Source: Formosa sediminum
GTDB lineage: Bacteria; Bacteroidota; Bacteroidia; Flavobacteriales; Flavobacteriaceae
Reading direction: 5' to 3'
Assembly (NCBI RefSeq): GCF_007197735.1
Contig: NZ_CP041637.1
Span: 3,319,001-3,383,000 of the forward strand
Length of the DNA stretch: 64,000 nt
Shown piece after piece: positions 1 through 55,244 of this stretch. The first letter of the stretch is position 1. Each line of letters begins with the position of its first letter. A program made the translations under genes and the position numbers. The notes below the pieces were generated by a model. It was not told where the DNA came from and made no database searches. It was given only the letters and a program-made list of their open reading frames with translations.

Positions 1-660
1 AGATACAGCTCCGGTTAAATCGCTCTTTTTTACGCTCCCATAACCAACCACAACAACTTCATCTAACCCTGCTGCATCAACATCCAAATTAATAGAGACA
101 TGAGACTGGCCTTCAAGAGGCAGTTCTTGTGTTGCATATCCTAAATAAGACACTACTAAAATAGCATGACTTGTAGAAACAGTTAGGGTAAAATTTCCGT
201 CGTAATCTGTAGTCACTCCATTTGTAGTGCCCTTTTCAACTACATTTGCACCTGGTAGCGGAAAACCCGTTTCGTCATTTACTAAACCTTCTACTTTAAA
301 GTTCTGTGTGACTTTTACTGTTTTTTGAGAGTTATTTAAATGCCCTATTAATACATCTTTACCTTTTATTTTATAGCTAAAATGTGCTTGTTGCCCCAAA
401 TCTGATAGCACAGCATCTATAGGTTGATTAGTGTAAACAGCATTAAAATGATTCTTATTTTTAGCAATAAAATCGCCATAAGTAATATTGAAATCAGTTA
501 TTTTTGATATTTTAGTTAAAATTTGTACAAGTGTAGCGCCTCGTTCATTAAGCGTAACATTTGTATTGGTTATGATTGTAGACATACCATAAGTTTGATA
601 GCTGCTTATAAGACATATAAACAGAGCTAATAGGAATAATTTCCTAAATGAATGTTTCAT
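1..660 (-). CDS. SusC-type TonB-dependent receptor, N-terminal part only
   Basis: I translated the minus strand from the ATG at 658-660 to the window edge: 220 open codons, with the rest lying off the left end. A signal peptide comes first, then an STN (secretin/TonB short N-terminal) domain at about residues 30-105, a CarboxypepD_reg-like domain at about 115-195, and the start of the plug with the typical VVVGYG motif. This is the outer-membrane glycan-import receptor of a utilisation locus that continues to the left. The STN domain marks receptors that signal to an anti-sigma factor, which fits the FecR and sigma genes directly upstream. The substrate cannot be told from this part. Confidence 0.93.
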   Translation of the reverse strand, partial: MKHSFRKLFLLALFICLISSYQTYGMSTIITNTNVTLNERGATLVQILTKISKITDFNITYGDFIAKNKNHFNAVYTNQPIDAVLSDLGQQAHFSYKIKGKDVLIGHLNNSQKTVKVTQNFKVEGLVNDETGFPLPGANVVEKGTTNGVTTDYDGNFTLTVSTSHAILVVSYLGYATQELPLEGQSHVSINLDVDAAGLDEVVVVGYGSVKKSDLTGAVS

Positions 661-8640: not shown

Positions 8641-10932
8641 ATGAGAAGTATACACTTTAAAACCATAATTGTATTTAGTTTTTTAGCATCCTTCAATTCT
8701 TTGCTAGCACAACAAATTAGTGGTTCAATATTAAATGTATCAGAACACCCCATTGCAAATGCATTTATAATTTATAATAATACAACGATTTCAGAAACAA
8801 ATGCTAATGGTGTTTTTAAACTCCCAGAGAACTTAAAATTACCTATAAAATTAAAAATTAGTCATCCCGATTATTATATAAAATCTGTTACTTTAAAAAC
8901 GAATAAAAGTATATTTAAACTTTTAGCATTAGAACAAACTCAAGATTTAGATGCCGTAATCATTTCATCTAGCTATCAAAAAGAGAGTAAAGTTATTGTA
9001 CCCACAACAAAGATATCGTCTCAAAAAATTGACACTTATAGCCCTATCGATTTGGTTTCTAGTATAAACGAAACGCCTGGCGTATTTATACAAAGTGGTG
9101 CATTAAATACCAATAGAATTGTAATTCGTGGTGTAGGTTCTAGGACGCTTTATGGCACAAATAAAATAAGAGCTTACTTTAACGGTATTCCCATCACTAA
9201 CGGAACCGGAGAAACAGCTATTGATGCTTTTGACCCTGAAGATATAGCAAATTTAGAAATTGTTAAAGGCCCTAAAGCAACGCAATATGGTACTAATTTG
9301 GGAGGCACATTATTACTTAATTCCAAACAAGCTTTAGAAGGCGAAACATTTTTAAAAACAAACCTGACAGTTGGAAGTTTTGGATTGTTAAAAAATAATG
9401 TTTCATTAGCGACAACATCTAATAAACTCGCTATTAATTTCAATTACGATCATCTAAAATCTGATGGATTTCGAGATAATAGTAATTATAAGAGACATAC
9501 TGCATTATTAACAACAAATTATAAATTTAACGAAAAAAATGAACTTGGATTCTTAATAAATTACACCGATTATTTTGCAGAAATTCCAAGTTCTATTGGT
9601 CAAACGGCATTTCATGAAGACCCTTCTCAAGCAGCATATACTTGGGATGCTGCTCAAGGTTACGAAGACAATAAACAAGTTTTAATAGGTTTAAATTATA
9701 CGCATCGTTTTTCCGACAACTTTAGTAATACCACAGCTGTATTTTATAGTTATTTAGACCATTACGAACCTAGACCCTTTAATATTTTAGATGAATTTAC
9801 TAATGGATATGGGGCTAGAACACTTTTTGCTAAAGATTTTAAATTTTTAAACCAAAATGCTAATCTTAGTTTTGGTGGTGAGATATATACAGATGAATAC
9901 AATTGGAAAACTATTGAAAATTTATACGAAAACAATAATGGAAACGGTAGTTTAGAAGGTAATTTACTTAGTGACAATATTGAAAACAGACAAAATCTTA
10001 ATGTTTTTGCTACAACCACATTACCTATTACAAATAAGTTAAAAGCTCAAATCGGGCTTAATATAAATGCTACCAATTACGAGTTTACTGATGCATTTAA
10101 AACGGGAGAAAACAATAAAGATGCAGACAGAAATTTCGATCCTATTGTGGCTCCAAATTTAAATATTGTCTATCAATTTGTTCCTAATATAAGTGCTTAT
10201 GCAAATGTAAGTAAAGGATTTAATTACCCGTCTATAGAAGAGACTCTTACACCCGAAGGAGTAATTAATCCCGAATTAGGACCAGAAACCGGAATTAATT
10301 ATGAAATTGGGAGCGAACTCTTCCTCGTTCAGAGTAAGTTACACATACAACTGTCTGCCTACCTATTAGATATAGACAATTTACTTGTTGCAGATCGTGT
10401 TGGCGAAGATCAATATATTGGAAGAAATGCTGGTAATACAGAGCACAAAGGAATTGAACTTTCTGCTTCTTATACAGAAATGTTTAATTCGGGTTTTGTT
10501 TTAGCACCGTACATAAATGCAGAAATTACTGATCATAAATTTATAGAATTTGTAGATAATGAAACCGATTATTCGGGTAATGAACTTACTGGTGTTCCAG
10601 ACCATAAATTTAATGGAGGATTACAGTTAGGATACAAAAACTTTAATTTAAACACTAATTTTTTATATGTAGGAGACATGCCTTTAAATGATGCTAATAC
10701 GCTTTATTCTGAAGAGTATACAATTTTAAACGCCAAACTAGCCTATAAAAATACTATAACATCACATTTTACTATAGAAGTTAATGCTGGTATAAATAAT
10801 ATTTCAAATAAAGACTACGCATCTTCTGTATTAATAAATGCTGTTGGGTTTGGAGATTCAGAACCAAGATATTATTACCCTGGACAACCACGAAATTGGT
10901 ACAGTGGCTTTAAAATAAGTTATAATATATAA
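8641..10932 (+). CDS. TonB-dependent outer-membrane receptor (siderophore/cofactor type)
   Basis: This 763-residue receptor has a signal peptide, a CarboxypepD_reg-like domain (about 25-100), a plug domain (IDLVSSINETPGV, VIRGVGSR, IEIVKGP-like LEIVKGPKATQYG) and a 22-strand barrel ending in aromatic residues. It has no SusD partner and is shorter than SusC proteins, so it resembles FecA-type transporters of small ligands. It sits 27 bases behind the PQQ-type dehydrogenase. One attractive reading is uptake of PQQ, as done by E. coli PqqU, or of a metal chelate; neither is shown by the sequence. A shared terminator follows. Confidence 0.88.
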   Translation: MRSIHFKTIIVFSFLASFNSLLAQQISGSILNVSEHPIANAFIIYNNTTISETNANGVFKLPENLKLPIKLKISHPDYYIKSVTLKTNKSIFKLLALEQTQDLDAVIISSSYQKESKVIVPTTKISSQKIDTYSPIDLVSSINETPGVFIQSGALNTNRIVIRGVGSRTLYGTNKIRAYFNGIPITNGTGETAIDAFDPEDIANLEIVKGPKATQYGTNLGGTLLLNSKQALEGETFLKTNLTVGSFGLLKNNVSLATTSNKLAINFNYDHLKSDGFRDNSNYKRHTALLTTNYKFNEKNELGFLINYTDYFAEIPSSIGQTAFHEDPSQAAYTWDAAQGYEDNKQVLIGLNYTHRFSDNFSNTTAVFYSYLDHYEPRPFNILDEFTNGYGARTLFAKDFKFLNQNANLSFGGEIYTDEYNWKTIENLYENNNGNGSLEGNLLSDNIENRQNLNVFATTTLPITNKLKAQIGLNINATNYEFTDAFKTGENNKDADRNFDPIVAPNLNIVYQFVPNISAYANVSKGFNYPSIEETLTPEGVINPELGPETGINYEIGSELFLVQSKLHIQLSAYLLDIDNLLVADRVGEDQYIGRNAGNTEHKGIELSASYTEMFNSGFVLAPYINAEITDHKFIEFVDNETDYSGNELTGVPDHKFNGGLQLGYKNFNLNTNFLYVGDMPLNDANTLYSEEYTILNAKLAYKNTITSHFTIEVNAGINNISNKDYASSVLINAVGFGDSEPRYYYPGQPRNWYSGFKISYNI

Positions 10933-10959
10933 AATTTATTGTACTAGATTTTAAATTAA

Positions 10960-10999
10960 AAACCTCAATTACACTTTATATTTAATGTAATTGAGGTTT
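10960..10999. terminator. Bidirectional terminator between convergent genes
   Basis: A 14-bp perfect stem (10960-10973 with 10986-10999; arm AAACCTCAATTACA) with a 12-base loop lies between the receptor (+) and the PLP-fold gene (-), with A/T runs on both sides. Confidence 0.85.
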
Positions 11000-17723: not shown

Positions 17724-19652
17724 TTAAAAATGCCATCTCACAAAGGCTTCCATAGCTGCGTAATGTGCTAAACCTAATTGATGATAAATCTCTGCAGTTT
17801 CTCGGTTTCTATCTTCTGCACGTTGCCAGAATTCTCTGCTGTCTGATCCCTGAAACACCACACCATCCTTTTGCGATTGATGCTTAAATATTCCATGGCG
17901 CTTTTCTAACACTTGATCCGGACTCATTGGTACTGCCATCTCTATCTCATCTACATTCCACTCTTGCCATGCCCCTCGGTATAACCAAACCCAACAGTCT
18001 TTCATATACTTTTTTGGTTTTAGGGCTTTTACGGCTGTAAATATGGCGTCTAAACACACTTTATGGGTCCCATGTGGATCGGCTAAATCGCCCGCTGCAT
18101 AAATTTGATGTGGCTTTATCTTATCGATTAAAGCCATCGTTATCTCTATATCGTCCTCGCCTAAAGGTTTCTTTTCTATGGCTCCTGTTTCATAGAATGG
18201 CATTTCCATAAAATGGATGTGAGCATCTGGTAAGCCTATAAATTTTGCTGCGGCATGCGCTTCTCCTTTTCGTATTAATCCTTTTATATAGCGTACTTCC
18301 GGAATGTCTATCTCACTCCCTTTTTTATTCTCTAAAAACGCTATGGCTTTTTTATAAATGTTTTCTGCTTCTGTACTTTCTATGCCAAATTTAGCATTGT
18401 AATCGCATACAAAACCTGCAAATCGTAAGGCTTCATCGTCCGATACTGCTATGTTTCCTGAGGTTTGATACCCAATATGCACCTCGTGGCCTTGTTCTTG
18501 TAATCGTTTAAAGGTCCCTCCCATACTGATTACATCGTCATCTGGATGTGGACTAAATATTAGTACCCGTTTCTTAGCTGGCTCTGCGCGTTCGGGGCGT
18601 TTAGAATCATCGGCATTAGGTTTTCCTCCAGGCCATCCGGTTATGGTGTTTTGCAACCTGTTAAAAATCTTGATGTTTATATCGTAGGCTGGTCCAGAAT
18701 CGGCTAATAAATCGCTCATTCCGTTTTCTATATAATCGGCATCGGTTAACATTAAAATCGGTTTCTTTAAATGTAATGCTAAACCTAATACAGCCTTTCT
18801 TACTAACTTATCCGTCCATTCTATTTTTTCTACCAACCAAGGTGTGTTTACTCGTGTTAGTTTGGAAGACGATTCTTTGTCTAATACAAAGGTTACATTA
18901 TCGTGCTCTTGTAAAAAAGAAGCTGGTACCAAGTTAGTTACTTGACCTTCTACAGATTGTTTTATAATGTTAGATTTCCCTTCGCCCCAAGCCATTAATA
19001 TGACGCGTTGGGCTTCCATAATCTTTTTAACACCTAATGTAATGGCTGTTCTTGGGGTGTTGTTTAATCCTAAAAAATCGCTGCTGGCTGCAACTCTGGT
19101 AATGTGGTCTAAGGCGACTAATCGCGTTTTTGAGTTTTGTAGTGATCCCGATTCGTTAAAACCAATATGGCCGTTTCCTCCAATTCCCAATATTTGTAAA
19201 TCTATTCCGCCTAAAGCTTCTATTTTTGACTCGTAAGCATCGCAATAATCTGCAATCTCTTCTTTGTCTAATGTTCCATCTGGAATGTGACAGTTTTCTG
19301 GTAAAATATCGACATGATTAAACAGTAACTCGTTCATAAATCGTACATAACTGTTTACAGAGTCTGGCTCCATAGGATAGTATTCATCCAAGTTAAAAGA
19401 AATTACATTCTTAAAACTTAAGCCTTCTTCTTTGTGTAAACGTACCAATTCTGCATATAAGCCTTTGGGTGAAGAGCCTGTGGCTAATCCTAATATACAA
19501 GGCTGTTTCTGTGAGGCTTTTACTTGGATTAATTCGGCGATTTCCTTAGCTACAGCTTTAGACCCTGAATTTGAATCTTCATAAACAACTGTCCCGATGT
19601 TCTCGAAGCGCTTTTCAAATCCTGTCGCTTTGTCTATACTACTTTTTAGCAT
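17724..19652 (-). CDS. nagB: Glucosamine-6-phosphate deaminase fused to a PIG-L/LmbE domain
   Basis: Residues 1 to about 270 are NagB, converting glucosamine 6-phosphate to fructose 6-phosphate and ammonia: NLDEYYPM holds the catalytic Asp and GNGHIGFNESGS the catalytic His-loop. After a linker, residues about 360-620 are a PIG-L/LmbE zinc deacetylase-like domain with the SPHPDDD motif and DPHGTH. This 640-residue fusion is the usual long NagB of Bacteroidota. Whether the second domain is active is not known to me. There is no signal peptide. It is the last gene of the operon, behind the MFS permease (39-base gap). Confidence 0.93.
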   Translation of the reverse strand: MLKSSIDKATGFEKRFENIGTVVYEDSNSGSKAVAKEIAELIQVKASQKQPCILGLATGSSPKGLYAELVRLHKEEGLSFKNVISFNLDEYYPMEPDSVNSYVRFMNELLFNHVDILPENCHIPDGTLDKEEIADYCDAYESKIEALGGIDLQILGIGGNGHIGFNESGSLQNSKTRLVALDHITRVAASSDFLGLNNTPRTAITLGVKKIMEAQRVILMAWGEGKSNIIKQSVEGQVTNLVPASFLQEHDNVTFVLDKESSSKLTRVNTPWLVEKIEWTDKLVRKAVLGLALHLKKPILMLTDADYIENGMSDLLADSGPAYDINIKIFNRLQNTITGWPGGKPNADDSKRPERAEPAKKRVLIFSPHPDDDVISMGGTFKRLQEQGHEVHIGYQTSGNIAVSDDEALRFAGFVCDYNAKFGIESTEAENIYKKAIAFLENKKGSEIDIPEVRYIKGLIRKGEAHAAAKFIGLPDAHIHFMEMPFYETGAIEKKPLGEDDIEITMALIDKIKPHQIYAAGDLADPHGTHKVCLDAIFTAVKALKPKKYMKDCWVWLYRGAWQEWNVDEIEMAVPMSPDQVLEKRHGIFKHQSQKDGVVFQGSDSREFWQRAEDRNRETAEIYHQLGLAHYAAMEAFVRWHF

Positions 19653-19691: not shown

Positions 19692-21029
19692 CTATGATTT
19701 TCTCCAACTTTTAAACTTATGTCCCCATATTGCAAAAAATAAGATGAATGCATAACAGGGGATTAAAATCCAATAACTACTGGTGGCGGCTTGTGCGATT
19801 GCCTCTGACTCTGATAAGCCTTCTGATAGTAATGATACGTTATTCAGATCAACCAGTTTTCCATATAATGGCGGAATCACTGCGCCTCCTGAAATAGCCA
19901 TAACCAATAAGGCTGATGCCGTTTTTGTAAACTTCCCTAAGCCATCTAAGGTTAGAGGCCAAACGGCGGGCCAAACCAAGGCATTTGAAATACCTAAGGC
20001 TGCCACAAATAGTACTGAGGTTAGTCCTGAGGTTAATATAATGCAACAGCTAAATACGATTCCTAAAATGGCACTTATAACTAATGCCTTATGCTGCTTT
20101 AAATATTTTGGAATTAAAACAACGCCTAAACCATAGGTTAATACCATAGCCAAGAGTGTGAAGGTAGTGAAGAATTTCGCTTCCTCTGAAGAAAACCCTA
20201 GTGAAATCCCATAAGATATTATTGTATCTCCTGCAATAACTTCTGCGCCTACATAAAAAAACAAGGTTAGTACTCCTAACCATAGATGTGGATACTGAAA
20301 TACACTCGTTTTTGCTGCCGTTGTTGCAGAAGTTTCTTCTGGTGTTTCTGGCTCTTCTAAATTTGGAAGCGGTGCTTTTCGTATTAAAAACCCTAAAACC
20401 AATAACACAATAGCCATGACTATATATGGAGTAACAACACTATCGGCCATAGTATTTAATAATGTTTCTTTTTCTGCTTCCGAGACGAATGCCAGTTTAT
20501 CTTTTACGCCATCTATACCAGATAATAACAAGGCACCAAAAATTAAAGAGCCTAATGCGCCTGCCACTTTATTGGCGATTCCCATTATGGCTATACGCTT
20601 GGCTGCACTTTCTATAGGTCCTAAAATAGTAATGTAAGGATTAGAAGCCGTTTGTAAGAGTGTCATCCCTAAACCTTGTATAAAAATACCTGTTAAAAAC
20701 ACCCAATAGGTACGGGCTTCGGCTGCGGGTATAAAGATTAAAGCTCCAAAAGCCATAACAAATAACCCTAATGACATCCCCTTTTTATACCCTACTTTAT
20801 TTATTATATAGGAAGCTGGAAGTGCCATAACTACAAATGAAATATATGAGGCTGATGCCACTAAATAAGATTGCGCATCGGTGAGCTCGTTTATCGTTTT
20901 CATAAATGGAATTAAGGCGCCATTAATCCAGGTTACAAAACCAAAAATGAAAAATAAGCCCGCAATTATAGCTATGGCGATATGATTGGTTTGGGGTTTT
21001 GGTGCAATTGCTTCTGTTTTGTTTTGCAT
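19692..21029 (-). CDS. Sugar MFS permease of the FucP/GluP/NagP group
   Basis: The 445-residue protein has about twelve membrane segments and the opening FFIFGFVTWINGALIPF typical of the fucose/glucose permease group. LLQTASNPYITILGP is the conserved loop of that group. In this operon, between GH20 and nagB, N-acetylglucosamine or a chito-oligosaccharide product is the likely cargo, by proton symport across the inner membrane. NagP is the likely functional equivalent, but the exact sugar is inferred. Confidence 0.85.
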   Translation of the reverse strand: MQNKTEAIAPKPQTNHIAIAIIAGLFFIFGFVTWINGALIPFMKTINELTDAQSYLVASASYISFVVMALPASYIINKVGYKKGMSLGLFVMAFGALIFIPAAEARTYWVFLTGIFIQGLGMTLLQTASNPYITILGPIESAAKRIAIMGIANKVAGALGSLIFGALLLSGIDGVKDKLAFVSEAEKETLLNTMADSVVTPYIVMAIVLLVLGFLIRKAPLPNLEEPETPEETSATTAAKTSVFQYPHLWLGVLTLFFYVGAEVIAGDTIISYGISLGFSSEEAKFFTTFTLLAMVLTYGLGVVLIPKYLKQHKALVISAILGIVFSCCIILTSGLTSVLFVAALGISNALVWPAVWPLTLDGLGKFTKTASALLVMAISGGAVIPPLYGKLVDLNNVSLLSEGLSESEAIAQAATSSYWILIPCYAFILFFAIWGHKFKSWRKS

Positions 21030-21084: not shown

Positions 21085-23058
21085 TTAAATATCTAAGCAT
21101 TTTTCAGCTTTAAAAGCAACCTGCATATCTTTAGAATGCACATCTATTTTATAATTTTTTTCTGGTGTTAGATACTTACAAGATTGAGTAGATAAAATTT
21201 TAATATGATTATCCCAACTGCCATCTGGAGACTTTAATAATATAAAAGATAGCGTGCTGTTTTTAGGAACTAATTTTGTTCCTGTATAAATTCCATTATA
21301 ATCAGAATCTGTTAAACTTACACTATCTGCGTGCCAATATTCTTCTGCTCCTGTATTAACATTTTTAAAAGTTCCTGAAAGGGTTAACATTTCGCGTCCG
21401 CCTTCTAGTTCTTTTAAAAACGGAGAGTCATTCATATCCACACTAAATGTTATAGTTACGTAATCATCATTTTTAATGTTTTTAGTATAATAAGGCGTAT
21501 TTTCCCAGTTTTGTTTTACAGTTTGAAGATTGGTTTGAAATCTTCTAAAATCTTTCTGTTCTGTCTGTGTCCATCCTACTTCTGCATAGGCAGCAAGTCT
21601 TGGAAATACTTGTCTATACATATCTTCTTGAGTTGGCACCCACTCACTCCACATTTGGCAACCTAACCCTAGAACTTGAGATTCCAAATTTTTGTCAATT
21701 CCTTCTGGAATTGGAGAAAAACTATATGCTTTTTCAAGTGAAATGGAATTATAATCATAATCTAGATACGTATAATTGTGCTGAGAATTAACAACCTCAT
21801 GACCTTTTGTAAGCGCAGAAACCATTAACTCTTGACTCCCTTTCCAAAAATGAATTATAGCACTTTGAGCTAATTTTTCGTTATTTTCTTTTTTAGTTTC
21901 CTCTACATTATAATGATGCAGATTTTCACCTAAGATATCATTCCAACCCATCATTCTATAACCTTTACTTTCAATAAATTTAGACATACTATTAGTGAAA
22001 GCTATTTGAATATCCGGATAAGATTTAATGTTATTATCTTTCATCCATTCAGTAACTTGTTCACTTTCTTTCCATTGATCAAACTTAACCTCATCACCAC
22101 CAATATGTACAATTTTACTAGGGAACAAATCAATTACCTCTTGCAATACATCTTCTAGAAATGTTTTTACTTTAGGATCTGTAACATTAAATATATTTGG
22201 TAATATTCCAAAAGTGACTGAGACATCTATTGGTTTATCTACTGTTCCTAACCAAGGATATGCAGCAATCGCAGCCGTGGCATGACCTGGCATTTCTATT
22301 TCAGGAATAATGGTAATGTGTTTTTTTGCGGCATAAGCAATAACTTCTTTTATATCTTCTTGTGTATAAAATCCTGAATGTGGTTTTCCTGTTCGTTTAT
22401 CACTTTTAACTCCATTAATTTGAGTATCATTCCTGTAACTCCCAATTTGAGTTAATAGAGGGTATTTTTTTATTTCTATTCTCCAGCCTTGATCGTCTGT
22501 TAAATGCCAATGAAAAACATTCATCTTTAAAAGAGCCATTTGATCTAACATATCGAAAACAACTTCTTTGCCTTTAAAATGTCTAGATTCGTCTAACATA
22601 AATGCACGCCATTTAAATTTCGGATTATCTTGAATAGAAACCTGAGGGAAAGACATACCTGATGCTGAACGGTCTAATTGTAGTTGTTTTAAAGTTTGTA
22701 TTCCGAAAAATATTCCTGCTGGATTTGCGGCAGTTATAGTTATTTTTTTATCGGTTATATCTAATTTATATCCTTCTTTTCCGTTTTCTTTTAAAGTGTG
22801 TTCTGCTAAAACTAACTCTATATTAAAATCTTTAGACTGAGTTGTAGTTGGTTTTAACCCTTTAGTTTTAATAAATTTACTCAACTCATTAAACTCACTA
22901 TTTAAAGCGTTATCGTACTTAACTTTTATGGTATTAAATGTTACTTCTCCGCTATGAAGAGTAACAGTATTGGGATAAGGAATTAAGTTTAATTGCGCAA
23001 TCATTTTTGAACTCGTTACAAAAAACACAATTGCTATTGCTATTACTTTTATATTCAT
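21085..23058 (-). CDS. GH20 beta-N-acetylhexosaminidase with an extra C-terminal beta domain
   Basis: A signal peptide (cut near IAQ, residue 22) is followed by the GH20 N-terminal domain (about 25-150) and the TIM barrel. HWHLTDDQGWRIEIKKYP and HIGGDEVKF are the family signatures; Asp and Glu of the latter (near residue 318) are the catalytic pair for substrate-assisted hydrolysis. Tryptophans that line the -1 pocket appear in MWSEWVP. After about residue 535 comes a 120-residue beta-rich domain (VTITFSVDMND, LSGTFKN, LSFILLKSPDGSWDNH) resembling starch-binding-type or uncharacterised carbohydrate-binding modules. It should release terminal GlcNAc/GalNAc in the periplasm or at the surface. 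Confidence 0.93.
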   Translation of the reverse strand: MNIKVIAIAIVFFVTSSKMIAQLNLIPYPNTVTLHSGEVTFNTIKVKYDNALNSEFNELSKFIKTKGLKPTTTQSKDFNIELVLAEHTLKENGKEGYKLDITDKKITITAANPAGIFFGIQTLKQLQLDRSASGMSFPQVSIQDNPKFKWRAFMLDESRHFKGKEVVFDMLDQMALLKMNVFHWHLTDDQGWRIEIKKYPLLTQIGSYRNDTQINGVKSDKRTGKPHSGFYTQEDIKEVIAYAAKKHITIIPEIEMPGHATAAIAAYPWLGTVDKPIDVSVTFGILPNIFNVTDPKVKTFLEDVLQEVIDLFPSKIVHIGGDEVKFDQWKESEQVTEWMKDNNIKSYPDIQIAFTNSMSKFIESKGYRMMGWNDILGENLHHYNVEETKKENNEKLAQSAIIHFWKGSQELMVSALTKGHEVVNSQHNYTYLDYDYNSISLEKAYSFSPIPEGIDKNLESQVLGLGCQMWSEWVPTQEDMYRQVFPRLAAYAEVGWTQTEQKDFRRFQTNLQTVKQNWENTPYYTKNIKNDDYVTITFSVDMNDSPFLKELEGGREMLTLSGTFKNVNTGAEEYWHADSVSLTDSDYNGIYTGTKLVPKNSTLSFILLKSPDGSWDNHIKILSTQSCKYLTPEKNYKIDVHSKDMQVAFKAEKCLDI

Positions 23059-23079: not shown

Positions 23080-24105
23080 TTATATGTTTGCTACCTGAAG
23101 CGTACCTCTATTTTGTATCTCTTTTAATAATTGTAATTGTGGTTGCTTTCTAGAGATATCTCTAGTATTGGCCATAGACAATACAGTTTGTTTTAAAATT
23201 TCGTTTTCTTGATGAAATGCTTCAATATCATCTTCTGTAATGAGTTTATAAAAACCATCTGTGTATAAAGAATAATTTAACTGTGATAAAGTTGTTCCTG
23301 CAATACTTTCAAAAAGTAAAATATCAGGAGACTTCATCTCTGTTAAAAATTTATTGCAATTATGTGTTAAAATAGGTTGGGATACATTTTTCCACATTTT
23401 ACCAGAAGCAGCTGTTTTTAAAGACTCTTCTGACTGGTAATAATTAAGCATTGCGGTATTAAACGGTATATTTAAAAATGTGCAAAGTTCTTGTAATACG
23501 ACTTTAGGTTTTGTGATAAGGTCTTCATAACACAATGAAAAAAACCGGTTAGGTGCAACACTATGTTTTAATTTTAAACACAATTCTTGCTCTGTTTTCC
23601 ATTTTTTTGCTAAGTGGTAAGTATGTTTAGGGCCAACAATTGCGTTTTTAAAAGAAAGTGCTACATCTCTCCCATCTCTATACAAGTGTATATATATAGG
23701 TTTAATATTTGAAGCTTCTAAAACATCTATATAATTAATATTTGCCATGCTCTTACAGCACCAATAATTTGCCTTAGCGTGTGTGGCTTTTAAATTATAT
23801 ATAACTTTAAAAACCTCTAACAACGTATTTGTTTCACACTGTTTTCTAATCGCTTTTCTATCTAAAGTGAAACCTTGCCAAGGCACGGGATTAAATTCAA
23901 TTAATTTACATACATCGTCTATTAATTTTAAAAAATTTAATTCGATGTTTAAATTACCGTATGTTGCTAATAATGGATAAAATCGCTGAAGTATATGCGG
24001 CGGATGTGGTGCATCAATAGCTTCAATCTGATTTAGCATGACACGTAATAAATTAGACCCTGACCTTTGAGTTCCTATAATTTGTATGGCTTTATTTTTT
24101 ATCAT
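23080..24105 (-). CDS. PAPS-dependent sulfotransferase family protein
   Basis: The 341-residue protein opens with the 5'-phosphosulfate loop IIGTQRSGSNLL (residues 9-20) and later carries LYRDGRDVALSF, the 3'-phosphate-binding block. YEDLITKP and LCTFLNIPF are further family marks. No signal peptide is present, so it acts in the cytoplasm and would transfer sulfate from PAPS to a hydroxyl or amine acceptor. The acceptor is unknown. Its ATG overlaps the stop of the CHR-transporter gene (ATGA, 24102-24105), so the two are translationally coupled. A sulfate-adding enzyme in a glycan-degradation operon is unusual. Confidence 0.87.
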   Translation of the reverse strand: MIKNKAIQIIGTQRSGSNLLRVMLNQIEAIDAPHPPHILQRFYPLLATYGNLNIELNFLKLIDDVCKLIEFNPVPWQGFTLDRKAIRKQCETNTLLEVFKVIYNLKATHAKANYWCCKSMANINYIDVLEASNIKPIYIHLYRDGRDVALSFKNAIVGPKHTYHLAKKWKTEQELCLKLKHSVAPNRFFSLCYEDLITKPKVVLQELCTFLNIPFNTAMLNYYQSEESLKTAASGKMWKNVSQPILTHNCNKFLTEMKSPDILLFESIAGTTLSQLNYSLYTDGFYKLITEDDIEAFHQENEILKQTVLSMANTRDISRKQPQLQLLKEIQNRGTLQVANI

Positions 24106-25349
24106 ATTTCTAAAAAAAAGTTATAAAATAGTATGCCTGAAATTCCAGAAATAGGAATTAAATAAATGACATCTATTTTGTAATTAATGGATGCTACTAA
24201 TACAATTAAAAAGATAATTACTGAAAAATAATTCACTGGATAGCTTTTACTAATCGTATAAGCCGCTGCTAGAATCATGCCTATAACTGCAGGCCTTAAA
24301 CCTTTAAAAGCAGCTTTAACAATAGGCGTGTTTTTTATTTTATTTATAAATTCTGAAAAGAGAATCATAATACATGCGGGAGGGATAAACACTGCTAAAG
24401 TTGCAGTGATTGCACCTATAAATCCCCCTACTTTATAGCCTATAAATGTGGCACTAATAAAAATAGGACCTGGCGTTAACTGCCCTAGTGCTATTGCGTC
24501 TACAAATTCTTTATTGGATAGCCATTGCAAACCATCAACAATAATTTCTTGCATAGCTGGGATAATAACATAACCGCCACCAAATAACGTAACACTAATA
24601 CTAGAAAAAGTAATCATTAACTCTTTGGTGATAATAACACTGTCGTAAACATCTCCTGTTGTAACTGATGGTAGCACAACACCAATACATAGCGATATAA
24701 TAATAAGTACTAGAATAAAGTACTTAAAGGCGTGTTTATACTCTACCTTAAGGGGTATTATAATGGGTTCTGGTTTAAGTGTATGTTTATAAATTAAGAC
24801 GCCTACTACACCACTACTTGCAATAATTATTACAGGGATAAAAACAGATTTTACAGATAAAATAGCAGCAATTGCTAAAAGACTAATTAAAACCTGTTTA
24901 TAATCTTTAATATGCTTTTTAGACATATTAAATGCCACGGCTACAATTATTGCAGAAACTGCAGGTAATACACCTTTAAAAAAATTATTAAGTAGTGTAA
25001 GTTGTCCGTATTCAAGGTATAAATATGATAGTATTATCATGAATATAAATGATGGTAATAAAATAGCAAGCATACTAATTAATGCGCCTTTTAAACCTCT
25101 TAATGTATACCCTATATATGCAATAACATTAAAAGCCATAGGTCCCGGTAACACTGAAGCAATTGATATTGCATCTAAAAGTAAATGGTCTTCAATAACA
25201 GGTTTCTTTTTTACAAGTTCTTTTTGAACTACAGATACTAAAGCCATAAACCCTCCAAAAGATGTTGCACCAATTTTAACAAACGACCAAAACAAAAAAG
25301 ACAAAGTCACATCGTTGAAGGGTATGTTTTTATGATCTGATTTTACCAT
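24102..25349 (-). CDS. CHR-family (chromate/sulfate) transporter, two-domain form
   Basis: The 415 residues hold two homologous halves, each with the CHR family signature: KIGATSFGGFMALV with LPGPMAFN in the first and LFGGGYVIIPAM with LTPGPIFISA in the second. About ten membrane segments are visible. Characterised members export chromate, a sulfate analogue. Because it is coupled to a sulfotransferase and adjacent to an arylsulfotransferase, the natural ion here may be sulfate or another oxyanion; this is inference. The gene follows the arylsulfotransferase by 14 bases. Confidence 0.88.
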   Translation of the reverse strand: MVKSDHKNIPFNDVTLSFLFWSFVKIGATSFGGFMALVSVVQKELVKKKPVIEDHLLLDAISIASVLPGPMAFNVIAYIGYTLRGLKGALISMLAILLPSFIFMIILSYLYLEYGQLTLLNNFFKGVLPAVSAIIVAVAFNMSKKHIKDYKQVLISLLAIAAILSVKSVFIPVIIIASSGVVGVLIYKHTLKPEPIIIPLKVEYKHAFKYFILVLIIISLCIGVVLPSVTTGDVYDSVIITKELMITFSSISVTLFGGGYVIIPAMQEIIVDGLQWLSNKEFVDAIALGQLTPGPIFISATFIGYKVGGFIGAITATLAVFIPPACIMILFSEFINKIKNTPIVKAAFKGLRPAVIGMILAAAYTISKSYPVNYFSVIIFLIVLVASINYKIDVIYLIPISGISGILFYNFFLEI

Positions 25350-25363
25350 TATTTTTAAGATAA

Positions 25364-26821
25364 TTAATTAGCATAACTCGTATCGTACAACTCTTTTATG
25401 TATTGCACTCTATACGTAGAATATTCTAAAGGCATATTTCCTAGCTCTTTACCGCTCTTATTAGTAAACACAATTCGGTTTGTATTGGTGCTACAGAATA
25501 CCACAAGACTGTCATTAATATACTCTGCACTTCCTTGAGAATGTGTAAAATATTTTTTTGGAAATAACACGATGTCTTTAGTTTTAACTTCCATATTTAG
25601 AGTATCTAACGAAAGTGTTAATAATCGGGATTGCGACTTAGCATTTATATCTAACATTTTAATTCTGTTAGACGCTTGTTTATAGCCAGGTTTAAACCTT
25701 AGATTACCATTATCGAGCAACACAAGTTCATTATCATTATTAATTCTTATGTTATGTTGTCCTGAAAACACAGCCTCTTCAGGCATTTTAAAATCGCTAT
25801 CTATACCTCCGAGTTTCCAAATTAAATCGCCTGTTTTTCCGTTAATTTTCCAAACCTGACTAATGTTTCTAAAAGACACATAGTAATCGCCATGTTTATC
25901 TTTAAATAATGCATTAGCATGTAACCAATCTTTTTTACTATTAAGAATTGTTTCATCATCTAGAGGATTCATTACATCAAAAACAGACCATTCCCAAACC
26001 ACTTCTTTTTTATGGTTTAATACAAGTATACCATCCCCCTTTATAGTATCAGTTTTAGTACCTCCTACAGAAGACAAATCCATTATTTTTTTATTATAGA
26101 CCAAAGTCATAATGTCTCCATTTTCATCTAAATCTACTTCATGATGAAAGGACTGTTGAATGTTGTCTTTACCCGTTTCTATTTCTAGTATTGTGTTGCC
26201 AAACTTATCGTACTCAATAATTTTTTTTCCATTTGTAAAATGCAACGTATCGTTACTTAAAATGCCCAATAAAGTTTCTTTGTTAGTCCATTTAGACACC
26301 TTAAAATTATCTTCATTTTTATAGTACGATGCTAACTTTCCTTCGCCATTGGTTAAGAATAAATACCCTGGAATTTGTCTAGAATGAAAATGAAGGTAAC
26401 CATCAAATTTAACATGAGATAGACTATCTTTATTTCTGTAATATGGTACCCATTGAATGTTTCTTGTAGTAGTAAAATTGTAAGTTTTACTTCGTCTTTC
26501 TAGAGATTTTTTCTGAACAACAACATTATACTTATAATCTGTATTCAGATTTACATCTACTAACATGAGGTGATGTAAATTAGAATTTCTGGATATAGGC
26601 GAATATGATATTACGGAGTCTGTTTGCGTTACATTTGTATAATTCCAATACTGTATGTAAGCATCTGCTCCCTCTGTAGTTTCAACATCAATTTTAATTT
26701 TAAGCGCATTATCTTTAACAGAATTAATTTCAATTACACCTATTTGTGGAGCAAATTTATTTGAAATTTGACTGCAGGAAGACATAATACTAAGAAGGCA
26801 AACACATAGAATTTTTCGCAT
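25364..26821 (-). CDS. Arylsulfate sulfotransferase (AssT-type) lipoprotein
   Basis: The N-terminus is a lipoprotein signal ending SSC at about residue 16. A bladed propeller follows an N-terminal Fn3-like beta domain. Residues matching those of E. coli AssT are present in order: His in SFHHEVDLDENGD (near 225), His in DWLHANALF (near 301), Arg in VSFRNIS (near 317), and His in FSGQHNIRI (near 355). AssT enzymes move sulfate from one phenolic sulfate ester to another acceptor without PAPS, through a sulfohistidine. The protein should be periplasmic or surface-exposed. It lies 59 bases behind susD, after a hairpin, so it is expressed with the glycan import system. Confidence 0.85.
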   Translation of the reverse strand: MRKILCVCLLSIMSSCSQISNKFAPQIGVIEINSVKDNALKIKIDVETTEGADAYIQYWNYTNVTQTDSVISYSPISRNSNLHHLMLVDVNLNTDYKYNVVVQKKSLERRSKTYNFTTTRNIQWVPYYRNKDSLSHVKFDGYLHFHSRQIPGYLFLTNGEGKLASYYKNEDNFKVSKWTNKETLLGILSNDTLHFTNGKKIIEYDKFGNTILEIETGKDNIQQSFHHEVDLDENGDIMTLVYNKKIMDLSSVGGTKTDTIKGDGILVLNHKKEVVWEWSVFDVMNPLDDETILNSKKDWLHANALFKDKHGDYYVSFRNISQVWKINGKTGDLIWKLGGIDSDFKMPEEAVFSGQHNIRINNDNELVLLDNGNLRFKPGYKQASNRIKMLDINAKSQSRLLTLSLDTLNMEVKTKDIVLFPKKYFTHSQGSAEYINDSLVVFCSTNTNRIVFTNKSGKELGNMPLEYSTYRVQYIKELYDTSYAN

Positions 26822-26838
26822 ATAAACTGATTGAAAAA

Positions 26839-26873
26839 ATCTGGTCTAGTACACTTATAAAACTAGACCAAAT
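26839..26873 (-). terminator. Intra-operon hairpin with T-run after susD (attenuator)
   Basis: On the minus strand a 9-bp stem (26862-26870 with 26842-26850, arm TGGTCTAGT) with an 11-base loop is followed by GATTTTTTC. It lies between susD and the arylsulfotransferase gene, and could lower expression of downstream genes relative to susCD. Confidence 0.7.
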
Positions 26874-26879
26874 CTTATT

Positions 26880-28379
26880 TTAGAAACTATTAGATGGATT
26901 TGGTTCCATATTTGGATTTAAATCCAATTCTGTACGTGGGATAGGCATTAATTTGTGGTCTTCAGTAACCGTAAGCGGATATCCTTGACTTTGAGCATAT
27001 TGATTTAAAGTTGAAACAAAAACACCTTGTCTAATTAAATCGTCTTTTCGTTGCCCTTCGCCTGCTAACTCAATAGCTCGTTCTGCTAACACAGCCGTTC
27101 TAAAATCTTCTTGTGTTAATCCTTCGGATAAATTTGCCAATCCAGACCTATTTCTAACCTGATTAATAGCCTCATAAGCAGCGGTGGTTGGACCGTTTAA
27201 TTCGTTCTCAATTTCTGCTTTTAATAAAAGTACATCTGCATAGCGTAAAACAGGTACACTCATTTTTGATATCCCATAATTTTGGTAAGCCACGTATCCC
27301 GTTCCTGGAGCTGTAACATCTCGATTATAACTTCCAAATTTTCTATTTATTGCAAATCCAAAATCGTCCATTGCACTTTTAATTGCTCCACCATATAGAT
27401 ATGGATACTCGTCAAAATACACCTCATTACGCTCATCTTCTGGCTCTATAGTATTGTATATATTTTCTGGTAACCCTACAGTTGCCCATCCCGTATCGTA
27501 GCCCCAAGGCGTAAAGAATTTTAAATGGTGATTAGAGGCCGTACTATAAGATTCGCCTAAAGACATAATTGAAAAAATAAATTCATCATCTAACACATTA
27601 GACTCATAAAATAGTTTTAAAAAATTGTCTTCTGTAAATAGGTTATATTCTCCTAAAGCAATTAACTTATCTATATTTTCTCCAGCTTCAGTCCATTTAA
27701 GTTGTCTTAGTTGTGTTTTAGCTAATAAGCCATACGCTGCACCTTTAGAAGCTTTACCTGGTGTATTTGATCTGCCTGGTAAATAGGTTGTAGCATATTC
27801 AAAATCTGATTCAATTTGTGCATATACAATTTCTAAATCTGTTCGTGCTAGTCCCACCTCATCAGACCTTGTGGGTTCTAATTTTAATGGTACTGCTCCA
27901 AATAACCCTGTAAGATCATAGTATGCTAATCCTCTTAAAAATTTAGCTTCGGCTATAAGCTCTTCTTTAGAAGTATCACTAAAAACACTGTCATCTATAC
28001 CCTCTATCAAGTACACTGCCCAATTTGCTCTATCAATAACCGTATAAATACTTGCCCATAAATCTGCCACGATATCTTCATCTGTCCAATCGTAGGTTTC
28101 TAAATTTCTGTAGTTAGAATCATTTAGAACAAACACATCTGTAATACCATCTGTAGCTCTTGCTAATACTCCAGAGGCGTAATAATCCCAACCTCCGGCT
28201 AAAAATCCGTTATATATACCATCAATTAAAGCTACAGCATCACTTTCTGTACTAATACTGGTTTCAGACAATTGCCCTTTAAGTTCTTCTTCTAAATCAT
28301 CACTACATGAAATTAATGCAACTATACATATAAAAAACATGTAATATATTTTAACCTTTAAAAATTTCTTTCCTATCAT
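26880..28379 (-). CDS. SusD/RagB-family glycan-binding lipoprotein
   Basis: The lipoprotein signal ends LISC near residue 25, followed by the usual acidic stretch. The SusD helical core (FLRGLAYYDLTGLFGAVPL, ATKGAAYGLL-like SKGAAYGLLAKTQL) and the C-terminal VLRYADVLLLKAE and INQVRNRSGL blocks are all present. It binds oligosaccharide on the cell surface and forms the lid of the SusC barrel. It follows susC by 11 bases. Length (499) is normal. Confidence 0.95.
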   Translation of the reverse strand: MIGKKFLKVKIYYMFFICIVALISCSDDLEEELKGQLSETSISTESDAVALIDGIYNGFLAGGWDYYASGVLARATDGITDVFVLNDSNYRNLETYDWTDEDIVADLWASIYTVIDRANWAVYLIEGIDDSVFSDTSKEELIAEAKFLRGLAYYDLTGLFGAVPLKLEPTRSDEVGLARTDLEIVYAQIESDFEYATTYLPGRSNTPGKASKGAAYGLLAKTQLRQLKWTEAGENIDKLIALGEYNLFTEDNFLKLFYESNVLDDEFIFSIMSLGESYSTASNHHLKFFTPWGYDTGWATVGLPENIYNTIEPEDERNEVYFDEYPYLYGGAIKSAMDDFGFAINRKFGSYNRDVTAPGTGYVAYQNYGISKMSVPVLRYADVLLLKAEIENELNGPTTAAYEAINQVRNRSGLANLSEGLTQEDFRTAVLAERAIELAGEGQRKDDLIRQGVFVSTLNQYAQSQGYPLTVTEDHKLMPIPRTELDLNPNMEPNPSNSF

Positions 28380-28390
28380 AATTTTTTGCT

Positions 28391-31300
28391 TTAAATTCCT
28401 ACTTTAACTCCAAGTGTAAATGATTTTTGATACGGATACGAATACGCATCTAATCCAGCTTCTGTATTTAAATTTGTACTACTTGATCTAGTTGAGTTCA
28501 CTTCCGGATCGAAGCCTGAGTAAGTATCCCAAGTAGCTAAGTTTGTACCTATTAAACTTAATTGAAGTGAAGCTAATCCTATCTTATCTAAAACTTCTCT
28601 ACTAAAATCATACGATAAACTTACATTCTTAAGTCTAACATACGAGGCATCTTCAACAAAATAATCGTTTACCCATTGATCGCCTTGCCATAAATCTTGA
28701 GGCAATGTACCAGCTGTATTTTCTGGAGTCCAACGCTCTTTAGCAATATCTAATGTATTGTATTGGTATCCTATAACATTATTTCCGTTAAGCTTATCTA
28801 TATCGAACACCCCGGTTAAAAAGACAGAAAGCGTAATGTTTTTATAACTAAATGTGTTACTAAAACCTAAGTTATATTTAGCATATCCATTACCTATTAA
28901 TTCCTTGTCTTCCCCTGTTATTTGTCCGTCACCATTTAGGTCTGCAAATAAAGGATCTCCAGCCACTGCTGTAGGTTGTGTTTCAGAAGTTTCACCTTGT
29001 TGTAAAACACCTAAATATCTATATCCATAAATTGTACCTACAGGTAAACCTTCTTTTAATACAGAATACGAACCGCTTACATTACCATCTATTCTCGCTT
29101 CTTCTCCTGGTAAAAAATCTGTACCTTCAATTAAATCAAGATCTATAACTGTATTCTCGTTTTGAGAGAAATTTAAAGTTGAACTCCAACTAAATCCACT
29201 ATTAAAAGTCTTATTGTAATTTAAACTAAGTTCATACCCTTTATTTTCTACTTCCCCTGAGTTGGTTAAAATAGATTCGATACCATTAGAAGGCGCTATA
29301 GTTTTATCTAACAATAAATTAGTTGTATTATTCTTATAATATCCTAATTCCATGGTTAAACTGTTATCAAAAAAACCAACCTCTAAAGCTAAATCGAATT
29401 TTTTAGTTTCTTCCCATTGTAAATCTTCATTACCTACTCTAGATGAAATTGTTCCTATAGATAAAGTAGATCCATCTGTAGTTACTGATGCAGATGGAGA
29501 AAATGTACTTTGTCCAAGTCCAACTCCAAATCTGTCATTACCCGTTATACCAATACTTGTTCTTAATTTTAATTGTGAAATAAAATTACTGTTAAAAAAA
29601 TCTTCGTTATGTACATTCCAAGCTACAGCTCCTGCTGGAAAATTCCCCCATTTATTCCCTTCTCCAAATTTTGAAGATCCATCTCTTCTATAAGTTAAGG
29701 TAAGTAAGTATCTATCGTCGTATATATAATTAACCCGCGCTAAATAAGAAGCTAATTCACTTTCTGCAATGTAAGATGATGGTGTTAAAATTGTAGCTCC
29801 ACTTTGTAAGCTATAATAGCCTAAAGCATCTGTAGTAAAATCACTTGATCCTGCCGAGAAATATTCTTCACTACTCCATTCATGCGAATATCCTGCAACT
29901 GCATTTATACTATGCTTACCTATTAATTTATCATAAGACAGTAAATTTGAATATGTATAATATTTATATAATAAATGACTTTGTGTTGCAGAACCCGGTT
30001 CTAAAGAAGACGCAACTAGACTTGAATAAGAAGGTAAAAACTGACTTATTTTTTGATTTACGATTCTCGCACCACCTTGAGTTTTAAAGGTAAAATCTTT
30101 TAAAATTGTAGCTTCTAAAAAGGCATTCGCTAACATAAAATAATTGGTTCCGCTATTATCCATAATTTCTAAAGTTTCTAAAGGATCTGTAGGAGAAGAA
30201 TTACCAAATATTAATGCTTTATCTTCAACAGACAATTCATCATATACGTCGTAAGTAGGAGTTAAAGGACTTGTTTGAAAAATCCCTCTTAATATATTGT
30301 CTTGTAACGAACTTGCAGAAAACCCTAAAAAATCACTTTCTGTTGCAGAAAATGATGTATTAACACCAACTTTAATTCTATCGTCTAATAAATCTTGATC
30401 TGCATTTAAACGTAAGTTATAACGATCAAACGAAGTGTTTTTAACTACACCATCCCAAGAGTACGCTCCCAAACTAAAAAACATTTTAGTATCATCGTTT
30501 CCTCCACTTACGGCTAGTTGATGATCTGATGTATACCCTGTTCTGAATGCTTCATCTAACCAATTTGTTTGTAAACCTAGCTCTTCAATTCTTGCAATGG
30601 CTTCATCTGTATATGATGGTGAAATTCCATTAGAAATATCAATCTGATTTTGAAGTAATGCATAGTCTGCGGAATCTATAAAATCATAAGCATCAATATC
30701 TGCATTCTGAATTGAAAAACTTCCTGTATAGATAATAGAAGATTTACCTTGTTTACCACGTTTTGTAGTTATAATTACAACACCATTTGCACCTCGCGTT
30801 CCATAAATAGCAGTTGCAGATGCATCTTTTAAAATACTTACGCTTTCTATGTCTGCTGGATTTATACTGTTAGATAATGATTCCATCGGAAAGCCATCTA
30901 CCACATATAACGGATTGTTATTACTGTTTACAGAATTATTACCTCTAATTCTAACCAACATATCTGCTCCAGGTTCTGCACTTGTTGTAGATATCTGGAC
31001 TCCCGAAGCACGACCTTGTATTAAATTCTCGACTCCCACAGCAGGTCCTTGATTAAAATCATCTTCATTAATTACGGAAACAGACCCTGTTAAGTCTTCT
31101 TTTCTTACACTACCATATCCAATAATAACGGTTTCTTCTAATTCACTAATATTAGATTCTAGAACAACTTTTAGAGTTGTTTGTGTACTAATTTTAACTT
31201 CCTTAGTAGTATACCCTAAAAAAGAAAACACTAAAACATTTCCTGGCGATGCGTTTATAGAAAAATTACCATCAAAATCTGAAGCAACTCCTTTTGCTGT

Positions 31301-31450
31301 TCCTTTTATTGTAATTGTGGCTCCAGCTAACGGAGTTCCTTCTGTGTCGACTAATGTGCCTTCTATATTTTTTTCTTGAGCCTGAACAGGAATAACTAGC
31401 CCAAATAACAGCAGACATATCATTTTAAATAATGTTTTTTTCATATACAA
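28391..31450 (-). CDS. SusC-family TonB-dependent oligosaccharide transporter
   Basis: The 1019 residues comprise a signal peptide, a CarboxypepD_reg-like domain (about 25-105), a plug (VIIGYGSVRKEDLTGSVS, DASATAIYGTRGANGV) and the C-terminal barrel. There is no STN domain, which fits control by the hybrid two-component regulator rather than by a sigma/FecR pair. MKKTLFK at 31444 is as good a start as the ATG at 31450. With SusD it imports glycans; the downstream GH20, MFS and nagB genes point to an N-acetylhexosamine-containing substrate. Confidence 0.95.
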   Translation of the reverse strand: MYMKKTLFKMICLLLFGLVIPVQAQEKNIEGTLVDTEGTPLAGATITIKGTAKGVASDFDGNFSINASPGNVLVFSFLGYTTKEVKISTQTTLKVVLESNISELEETVIIGYGSVRKEDLTGSVSVINEDDFNQGPAVGVENLIQGRASGVQISTTSAEPGADMLVRIRGNNSVNSNNNPLYVVDGFPMESLSNSINPADIESVSILKDASATAIYGTRGANGVVIITTKRGKQGKSSIIYTGSFSIQNADIDAYDFIDSADYALLQNQIDISNGISPSYTDEAIARIEELGLQTNWLDEAFRTGYTSDHQLAVSGGNDDTKMFFSLGAYSWDGVVKNTSFDRYNLRLNADQDLLDDRIKVGVNTSFSATESDFLGFSASSLQDNILRGIFQTSPLTPTYDVYDELSVEDKALIFGNSSPTDPLETLEIMDNSGTNYFMLANAFLEATILKDFTFKTQGGARIVNQKISQFLPSYSSLVASSLEPGSATQSHLLYKYYTYSNLLSYDKLIGKHSINAVAGYSHEWSSEEYFSAGSSDFTTDALGYYSLQSGATILTPSSYIAESELASYLARVNYIYDDRYLLTLTYRRDGSSKFGEGNKWGNFPAGAVAWNVHNEDFFNSNFISQLKLRTSIGITGNDRFGVGLGQSTFSPSASVTTDGSTLSIGTISSRVGNEDLQWEETKKFDLALEVGFFDNSLTMELGYYKNNTTNLLLDKTIAPSNGIESILTNSGEVENKGYELSLNYNKTFNSGFSWSSTLNFSQNENTVIDLDLIEGTDFLPGEEARIDGNVSGSYSVLKEGLPVGTIYGYRYLGVLQQGETSETQPTAVAGDPLFADLNGDGQITGEDKELIGNGYAKYNLGFSNTFSYKNITLSVFLTGVFDIDKLNGNNVIGYQYNTLDIAKERWTPENTAGTLPQDLWQGDQWVNDYFVEDASYVRLKNVSLSYDFSREVLDKIGLASLQLSLIGTNLATWDTYSGFDPEVNSTRSSSTNLNTEAGLDAYSYPYQKSFTLGVKVGI

Positions 31451-50304: not shown

Positions 50305-50321
50305 ATTGCGTTGTTTTTAAA

Positions 50322-53849: not shown

Positions 53850-53993
53850 AAAGTTATTAATTGTTTAAGGGTTGGTAATAAGCGTTTTTCTTATTTAAGA
53901 AAGTTTAGTATCCGTTTTAAAAGTGGCTATTTAACTTAAATTGATTTGAGTTACTTAAAACGTTACTTTTTTCATTTTTATAAAATCATATAA

Positions 53994-55160: not shown

Positions 55161-55244
55161 AAATATTAAACATATATAGCTAAGACGTGCGTTTTATTAA
55201 ATACCCCCACTCTATATTGATAATATTTTTAAATAAAATGAAAT

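Follow-up and report, generated by a model that had tools for sequence, protein, structure and literature searches.

A Conserved AssT–CHR–Sulfotransferase Cassette Linked to SusCD in Formosa sediminum and Other Bacteroidota: A Possible Sulfuryl Relay across the Inner Membrane

The genes of an arylsulfate sulfotransferase-type lipoprotein (AssT), a chromate-transporter-family protein (CHR), and a sulfotransferase (ST) predicted to use 3'-phosphoadenosine 5'-phosphosulfate (PAPS) lie side by side, behind a SusC-SusD pair, in a 64,000-nt stretch of the Formosa sediminum genome (NZ_CP041637.1, positions 3,319,001 to 3,383,000; hereafter, the window). The grouping of the three genes is not due to chance, and they almost certainly form a functional module. 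We propose, at about even confidence, that this module, attached to the SusCD system, relays sulfuryl groups across the inner membrane in two steps. Coordinates are positions in the window, and the cassette and its neighbours are all on the minus strand; L and G numbers denote loci and genomes of this analysis.

28391..31450, minus strand: SusC-like TonB-dependent transporter (open reading frame; synteny and 53–86% identity in three relatives, L018–L020)
26880..28379, minus strand: SusD-like lipoprotein, CSDDLEEE after the lipobox (PF07980, 7e-32)
25364..26821, minus strand: AssT, putative PAPS-independent arylsulfate sulfotransferase-type lipoprotein (PF05935/PF14269 Arylsulfotrans, 1.5e-27 and 3e-25)
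24102..25349, minus strand: CHR, predicted two-domain inner-membrane anion transporter of the chromate-transporter family (PF02417 Chromate_transp, 9.1e-87, two stretches)
23080..24105, minus strand: ST, predicted cytoplasmic PAPS-dependent sulfotransferase (PF13469 Sulfotransfer_3, 1.6e-22)

A preliminary description of this DNA had annotated the last three genes as AssT, CHR, and a PAPS-type ST, correctly in view of the profile matches (PF05935/PF14269, PF02417, and PF13469), which are well above their cut-offs; the overlap that it reported between CHR and ST is borne out by the coordinates and the sequence and consists of the 4 bases ATGA.

Conservation of the Cassette

The occurrence of the cassette was examined in 248 genomes of Formosa's family, which were queried with AssT, ST, and CHR at E <= 1e-10. 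Matches were obtained in 9 genomes for AssT, 18 for ST, and 48 for CHR, and the same six genomes (G000, G121, G143, G238, G212, and G006) stood apart for all three proteins, with scores of at least 195, 284, and 242 bits for AssT, ST, and CHR, respectively, against 146, 102, and 155 bits for the next best. The three genes were contiguous in four of these genomes and lay on one contig within ~12 kb in the other two; none of them was found in G014, the only other genome of the same genus among the matches listed. Two sets of six in 248 would agree by chance once in 3e11, a figure that assumes independent genomes and ignores their relatedness.

An ST-seeded scan of the genome collection gave 50 loci, 49 of them from Bacteroidota by title and one a weak outlier (L087, 23% identity), which were annotated with profiles built in this analysis, AssT being counted above 90 bits. 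CHR was recognised in 44 loci (next to ST in 40), AssT in 35, and SusC in 33, and SusD and AssT were direct neighbours in 30. The cassette recurs in Flavobacteriaceae, Pedobacter, Mucilaginibacter, Draconibacterium, and others. Together with the six shared genomes of the family, the scan establishes what the preliminary description had put forward, namely a real cassette tied to susCD, and the three genes are clearly co-conserved in relatives. Among the 30 loci whose record title carries no metagenome-assembled genome (MAG) tag (two such titles say uncultured), CHR was present in 29 and a local AssT in 22; a genome-wide search for seven of the eight loci without a local AssT found one elsewhere in the genome in all seven.

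Features of AssT

In an alignment with E. coli AssT (3elq), which stops short of the active-site Thr501, residues H227, H301, N303, R318, and H356 of the window AssT corresponded to H252, H356, N358, R374, and H436, which are listed as active-site residues in the available text of PMC13426309. The counterparts of His252, His356, Asn358, and His436 were identical in 63 of 63 AssT homologues. That of R374 was present in 29 of the 63, the window protein (R318) included; all 34 homologues lacking it have an arginine at window positions 424–432, as do 2 of the 29 that keep it, and in 33 of the 34 this arginine falls in a single column, inside an RMG motif. The 63 proteins include close relatives, and these are counts of residues rather than of events. 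The four invariant residues and the apparent relocation of the arginine suggested that catalysis is under selection, and the arginine swap, an unexpected feature of the alignment, further suggests a need for a guanidinium.

The AlphaFold model of AssT (mean predicted local distance difference test score, pLDDT, 88.8) is predicted to consist of an N-terminal beta-sandwich and a six-bladed beta-propeller, that is, the AssT fold, and its best Foldseek matches were E. coli AssT and Streptomyces Cpz4 (TM ~0.56–0.66). The best PDB sequence match was also Cpz4 (9kf4). The transfer of sulfuryl groups from aryl sulfates without PAPS is a putative activity. The window AssT has the lipobox LSIMSSC and none of the acidic residues that follow the SusD cysteine; acidic residues after the cysteine are the basis of an export rule for lipoproteins, and AssT is probably periplasmic on this count. 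A scripted search recognised a lipobox in 28 of 63 AssTs and 20 of 49 SusDs, counts of little weight because the protein starts were taken mechanically.

CHR, ST, and the Supply of PAPS

CHR contains two Chromate_transp domains and scored 238.6 bits with TIGR00937 against a cut-off of 171.7, which places it in the CHR family. The module CHRs of Formosa's family were 37–69% identical to the window CHR; other CHR matches covering most of the protein were 28–32% identical, with short partial stretches of up to 43%.

ST contains the motifs IIGTQRSGSN and YIHLYRDGRDV, of which GTQRSGSN and RDGRDV were unchanged in every one of the 32 STs aligned; we take these to be the PAPS-binding motifs known as 5'-PSB and 3'-PB. 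A signal peptide was not evident on inspection of the sequence. The folds nearest to the ST model (pLDDT 92.9) were those of tyrosylprotein sulfotransferases, whose acceptor is a phenol, and of the ST domains of CurM/OLS.

Genes of an adenosine 5'-phosphosulfate (APS) kinase, CysC (PF01583), and of a CysQ-type protein (PF00459) were found close to ST in L019, L020, and L021, and in L019, the one locus checked, both products exceeded their NCBIfam cut-offs (TIGR00455 and TIGR01331). Each of the two was present in 24 of the 50 ST-seeded loci; in the 24 loci with both, they lay at most three genes from ST in 23 and at most five in the remaining one. This proximity suggested that sulfate activation flows outward from PAPS. 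In Formosa sediminum, the PAPS genes lie away from the window, at C1:955 kb, where CysQ, DUF2061, CysC, a PAPS_reduct-family protein of the size of CysD, and a CysN-like GTPase are encoded, with polysaccharide biosynthesis genes after the GTPase. All 11 module genomes queried for an APS kinase had one of at least 185 bits. The enzyme was not accepted as an unambiguous marker of the relay, since it also occurs in six AssT-only genomes (135–143 bits) and in the module-less G014.

A Proposed Sulfuryl Relay

The gene content, synteny, co-occurrence, catalytic residues, and folds described above were observed directly. In the relay that we infer, which assigns a carrier, a cargo and a direction of CHR, a location of AssT, and an acceptor, cytoplasmic PAPS would feed ST, CysC supplying PAPS and CysQ removing 3'-phosphoadenosine 5'-phosphate (PAP). 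ST would sulfate a small carrier, probably phenolic, and CHR would export the aryl sulfate through the inner membrane. On the periplasmic side, the sulfuryl group would move from the aryl sulfate to H356 of AssT, the equivalent of E. coli His436, and from there to an acceptor, for which a hydroxyl group of a carbohydrate delivered by the linked SusCD is the most plausible candidate. According to the accessible text of PMC13426309, the donors of arylsulfate sulfotransferases (AST or ASST) are aryl sulfates and not PAPS, alkyl sulfates having been inactive in a single donor study; N-acetylglucosamine (GlcNAc) is efficiently sulfated by at least one AST, and Cpz4 prefers a sugar hydroxyl. The wider form of the proposal, a sulfate-export relay of the Bacteroidota inner membrane in which ST would load sulfate onto a diffusible carrier, the resulting aryl sulfate would leave through CHR, and AssT would draw on it to sulfate periplasmic carbohydrates, is offered more tentatively, at somewhat less than even confidence.

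The acceptor at the Formosa sediminum locus would be a GlcNAc-containing oligosaccharide, because genes of a glycoside hydrolase of family 20 (GH20), NagP, and NagB adjoin the cassette. That the imported glycan is the acceptor of AssT is, for us, a rather doubtful part of the proposal.

21085..23058, minus strand: GH20 beta-N-acetylhexosaminidase (PF00728, 1.5e-105)
19692..21029, minus strand: NagP-like permease of the major facilitator superfamily (MFS) (NF046060, 4.7e-123, under its cut-off)
17724..19652, minus strand: NagB, glucosamine-6-phosphate deaminase, fused to a PIG-L deacetylase domain (PRK02122 and TIGR00502, both above cut-off)

The eight genes form a same-strand run with gaps of 11 bases between SusC and SusD, 58 between SusD and AssT, 14 between AssT and CHR, −4 between CHR and ST, 21 between ST and GH20, 55 between GH20 and the NagP-like gene, and 39 between the latter and NagB/PIG-L. 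With a susC-susD pair, a glycoside hydrolase, and sugar catabolism genes, the locus is a polysaccharide utilization locus (PUL). As the preliminary description had stated, no sulfatase was found in the window (PF00884 search), and the locus does not class as a sulfated-glycan PUL. The GlcNAc catabolic setting described there likewise stands for the window, with its GH20, NagP-like, and NagB genes; a confinement of the cassette to GlcNAc does not, as GH20 or GH123 was recognised within the fetched flanks of 13 of the 50 ST-seeded loci. A sulfatase above 90 bits was found in 2 of the 50 with a two-sequence profile, which may miss distant ones. Elsewhere in the Formosa sediminum genome, PF00884 had 13 matches, 11 of them at 134 bits or more. 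The nearest (G000:C1:3308308-3309432) lies ~10 kb before the window start and has a single TGA in frame; it may be a broken gene or a sequence error.

Evidence Weighing Against the Relay

Several observations weigh against the relay or parts of it. We know of no member of the CHR family that carries aryl sulfates. In addition, of 11 AssT genomes queried for ST, 10 had none, which suggested that the enzyme can be supplied by a different donor. All 11 were picked because no ST was then known in them. Eight had the highest scores, Formosa's own aside, in a wider AssT search, of which the other 32 AssT genomes were left out, and three were AssT-only genomes of the family. The ten without ST comprised six of one genus (g127), G497, G225, G094, and G023, and G294 had an ST. 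The ten loci contain SusCD; AssT has a GH123 gene nearby in nine of them and a GH20 gene in the remaining one. The APS kinase matches of 135–143 bits mentioned above belong to six of these genomes. Similarly, only one of seven genomes searched for MAG-tagged loci without a local AssT had an AssT, the outlier L087 being among the other six; the genome-wide AssT search as a whole was positive in 13 of 19 genomes.

Seven of the ten ST-less loci (L118–L124, e.g., L118:6559-7548) encode a SoxA/TsdA-like diheme cytochrome c between AssT and GH123, in L121 by sequence alone; in these ST-less SusCD-AssT-GH123 loci, the cytochrome is possibly a different sulfur link. Genomes of other Bacteroidota families (e.g., G379, G337, and G310) have several AssT homologues each, mostly in frames of ~500–1340 aa, and SusCD, ST, and CHR were not recognised beside such multi-copy AssTs in the four loci examined (L134–L137).

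Correlations of gene distances were high for CHR-ST (r 0.91), AssT-SusC (0.90), and AssT-SusD (0.91), and weaker for AssT-ST (0.76) and AssT-CHR (0.73), suggesting that the unit consists of two blocks, CHR-ST(-CysQ-CysC) on the one hand and SusCD-AssT on the other, which usually go together. The comparison covered the 35 loci with all three genes (31–32 for SusC or SusD), and its name permutation ignores the species tree. L086, where ST is cut by the contig end, and L084, where it is in two frames, were left out. The latter locus (Niabella; ST at 9986-10992) keeps SusCD-AssT, CysQ, and CysC, and CHR was not seen there; it is perhaps a decaying cassette.

The putative carrier and acceptor meet further difficulties. 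A search for a type III polyketide synthase (PKS) in Formosa sediminum gave a single hit, below the PF00195 cut-off (23.5 bits), and a carrier made by such an enzyme, as in caprazamycin, was rejected for this genome. Type III PKSs above the cut-off were found in three of eight module genomes, on other contigs than the module in G212 and G629 and apparently on the same contig, ~1.3 Mb off, in G630. No recurrent phenol-making neighbour was found in the clusters of unknown neighbours or in a Pfam tally of the 25 commonest of 117 families, which covered 74 of 86 cluster representatives (12 were dropped by hand, one of them from L087); recurring neighbours were, besides the M1-peptidase-like protein described below, MFS transporters and methyltransferases, in a few loci. 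Many loci, for example those of Pedobacter, had no glycosidase among the profiles used, so that an imported glycan as the acceptor is weakly supported. Moreover, known ASSTs are described as having a 'clear predilection' for aromatic acceptors in the available part of PMC11576661.

Lastly, the preliminary description had placed the cassette in one operon with susCD. The same-strand run with its short gaps agrees with this; full co-transcription with susCD is not assured, because a hairpin and a U-run separate susD from assT.

26836..26876, minus strand: strong hairpin, then U-run, in the susD-assT gap (folding energy −17.8 kcal/mol, z −5.17)

None of 200 shuffles was equally stable, and 35 of 45 related susD-assT gaps, which differ in sequence, folded at −14 kcal/mol or below, a count made with no shuffle control. 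The hairpin is possibly an attenuator or a terminator, and it may uncouple assT expression from susCD. A simple terminator scan, which allowed only loops of 3–8, did not list this hairpin and gave 12 sites vs. 8.6 (standard deviation (sd) 3.1), no clear excess; a promoter scan of the region was uninformative, with 72 sites vs. 90.1 (sd 9.8) in shuffles.

Alternative Explanations

The relay may be real and have another acceptor, for example a lipid or glycan of the envelope, or a bioactive small molecule that SusCD imports for tailoring or detoxification; we consider this unlikely. It would suit Pedobacter L055–L058, where the order is CHR-ST-CysQ-CysC-SusCD-AssT and no glycosidase was recognised by the profiles used, as well as the variety of glycoside hydrolases near the cassette genes (GH20, GH123, GH16, GH31, GH2, GH97, and GH18) and the fact that Cpz4, the nearest solved relative by sequence, has an antibiotic as its substrate. 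However, the adjacency of SusD and AssT in 30 of 50 loci and the co-divergence of AssT with SusCD link AssT to an imported ligand, and the closest loci of the family (L018–L020 and L038–L042) have a GH20 and/or NagB gene, a point limited by L067, L072, L074, L078, and L079 of the same family, which show no GH20.

A second possibility is desulfation or scavenging, in which a sulfated glycan or an aryl sulfate would be taken up and AssT would move its sulfate to a phenol, CHR would import the aryl sulfate, and ST in reverse would recover PAPS for sulfur assimilation. It accounts for the presence of a catabolic operon in a window devoid of sulfatases and for the occurrence of SusCD, GH123, and AssT without ST, and a title on PAPS regeneration with an aryl sulfotransferase, cited in PMC11576661, suggests that reversal of ST is possible. 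Nevertheless, reverse ST needs PAP, which CysQ destroys, while APS kinase makes PAPS, and both genes are present in 24 of 50 loci. Energetically, a phenol is an uphill acceptor for the sulfuryl group of a sugar sulfate. The preliminary description had suggested a related scheme, in which AssT removes sulfate from the glycan and a product is sulfated anew by ST; the CysC and CysQ genes near ST in the same 24 loci speak against it, and it is less likely because the single donor study reported in the available text of PMC13426309 found no activity with alkyl sulfates. We regard desulfation as improbable.

Slightly less probable again is the absence of any relay, with CHR importing or balancing inorganic sulfate for PAPS, ST making an unrelated cytoplasmic ester, AssT using environmental aryl sulfates, and the genes being neighbours through shared sulfate regulation. 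The two partly independent blocks fit this explanation, as does the location of AssT and CHR-ST on different contigs in several Pedobacter draft genomes. On the other hand, the separated AssT was still in the genome for 7 of 7 non-MAG-tagged loci searched, CHR is next to ST in 40 of 50 loci, and the module CHRs are set apart from other CHRs by their identity to the window CHR (37–69% vs. 28–32%). Finally, AssT could be a non-catalytic, glycan-binding beta-propeller partner of SusCD, given that it follows SusD, after which accessory SusE/F-like lipoproteins are often encoded, and that the ligand-binding Bacteroides surface lipoproteins BtuG2 and BT1954 are lower among its fold matches, but this is very improbable in the face of the four active-site residues shared by all 63 proteins, the apparent relocation of an arginine in each of the 34 without R374, and an AssT start without the acidic residues found after the window SusD cysteine, as judged by the export rule mentioned above.

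Comparison with Known Systems

In the caprazamycin pathway of Streptomyces, PAPS-dependent Cpz8 makes a phenolic sulfate that is then used by the ASST Cpz4 (PMC4257720, in its accessible part). As there, a PAPS-dependent ST and a PAPS-independent ASST appear to be encoded together at the Formosa locus. Unlike the actinobacterial Cpz system, the cassette belongs to Bacteroidota, its genome has no type III PKS above the cut-off, and the locus has CHR, SusCD, and a likely periplasmic AssT, so that sulfuryl transfer by the relay would span a membrane. With no type III PKS above that threshold, the Formosa cassette was not classed as Cpz-type; it may work alike.

AssT resembles E. coli CFT073 AssT (3elq) and other bacterial ASTs in its fold and in its His252/His356/Asn358/Arg374/His436 equivalents, and differs from the E. 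coli protein in sequence, with 12–13% of positions identical in the structural alignment. The available text of PMC13426309 (2026) places E. coli AssT in the periplasm and also states that in over 40 years no natural substrate of a bacterial AST has been identified and that little is understood of what these enzymes do physiologically, with Cpz4 named as the exception; at the Formosa locus, a candidate donor-maker adjoins AssT. The 'sulfation cassette' of the adp cluster (PMC12135136) likewise has an ST clustered with PAPS-supply genes, but, unlike the Formosa cassette, AssT, CHR, and SusCD are not mentioned for it in the accessible part of that paper. Like the hexosaminidase PULs of Bacteroidota (GH20/GH123), the Formosa locus has SusC, SusD, GH20, a NagP-like permease, and NagB in one run; unlike them, it has sulfotransferases instead of sulfatases. 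No title describing the AssT-CHR-ST-SusCD combination was found in a literature search whose coverage excluded most subscription papers, and no paper was found for arylsulfotransferase, Bacteroidetes, and polysaccharide utilization combined.

The cassette could reveal the natural role of a sulfate-transfer enzyme that has long been known and functionally unexplained. Since the locus puts a candidate donor-maker, exporter, and acceptor-importer beside AssT, this role is testable by single-gene deletions. If the relay is true, AssT would gain a natural donor and acceptor and the periplasm a 'portable PAPS', a subgroup of CHR proteins would have a function besides chromate efflux, and glycan loci could add sulfate and not just remove it.

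Other Features

A protein of 650–750 aa is encoded in 13 of the 50 ST-seeded loci (L044, L046, L048–L050, L054–L057, L068, L080, L083, and L085) and was M1-peptidase-like in the four members scanned. The window contains a second SusC/SusD pair, at 48910-55865, which is preceded on the same strand by genes of a FecR-type anti-sigma factor and an extracytoplasmic function (ECF) sigma factor.

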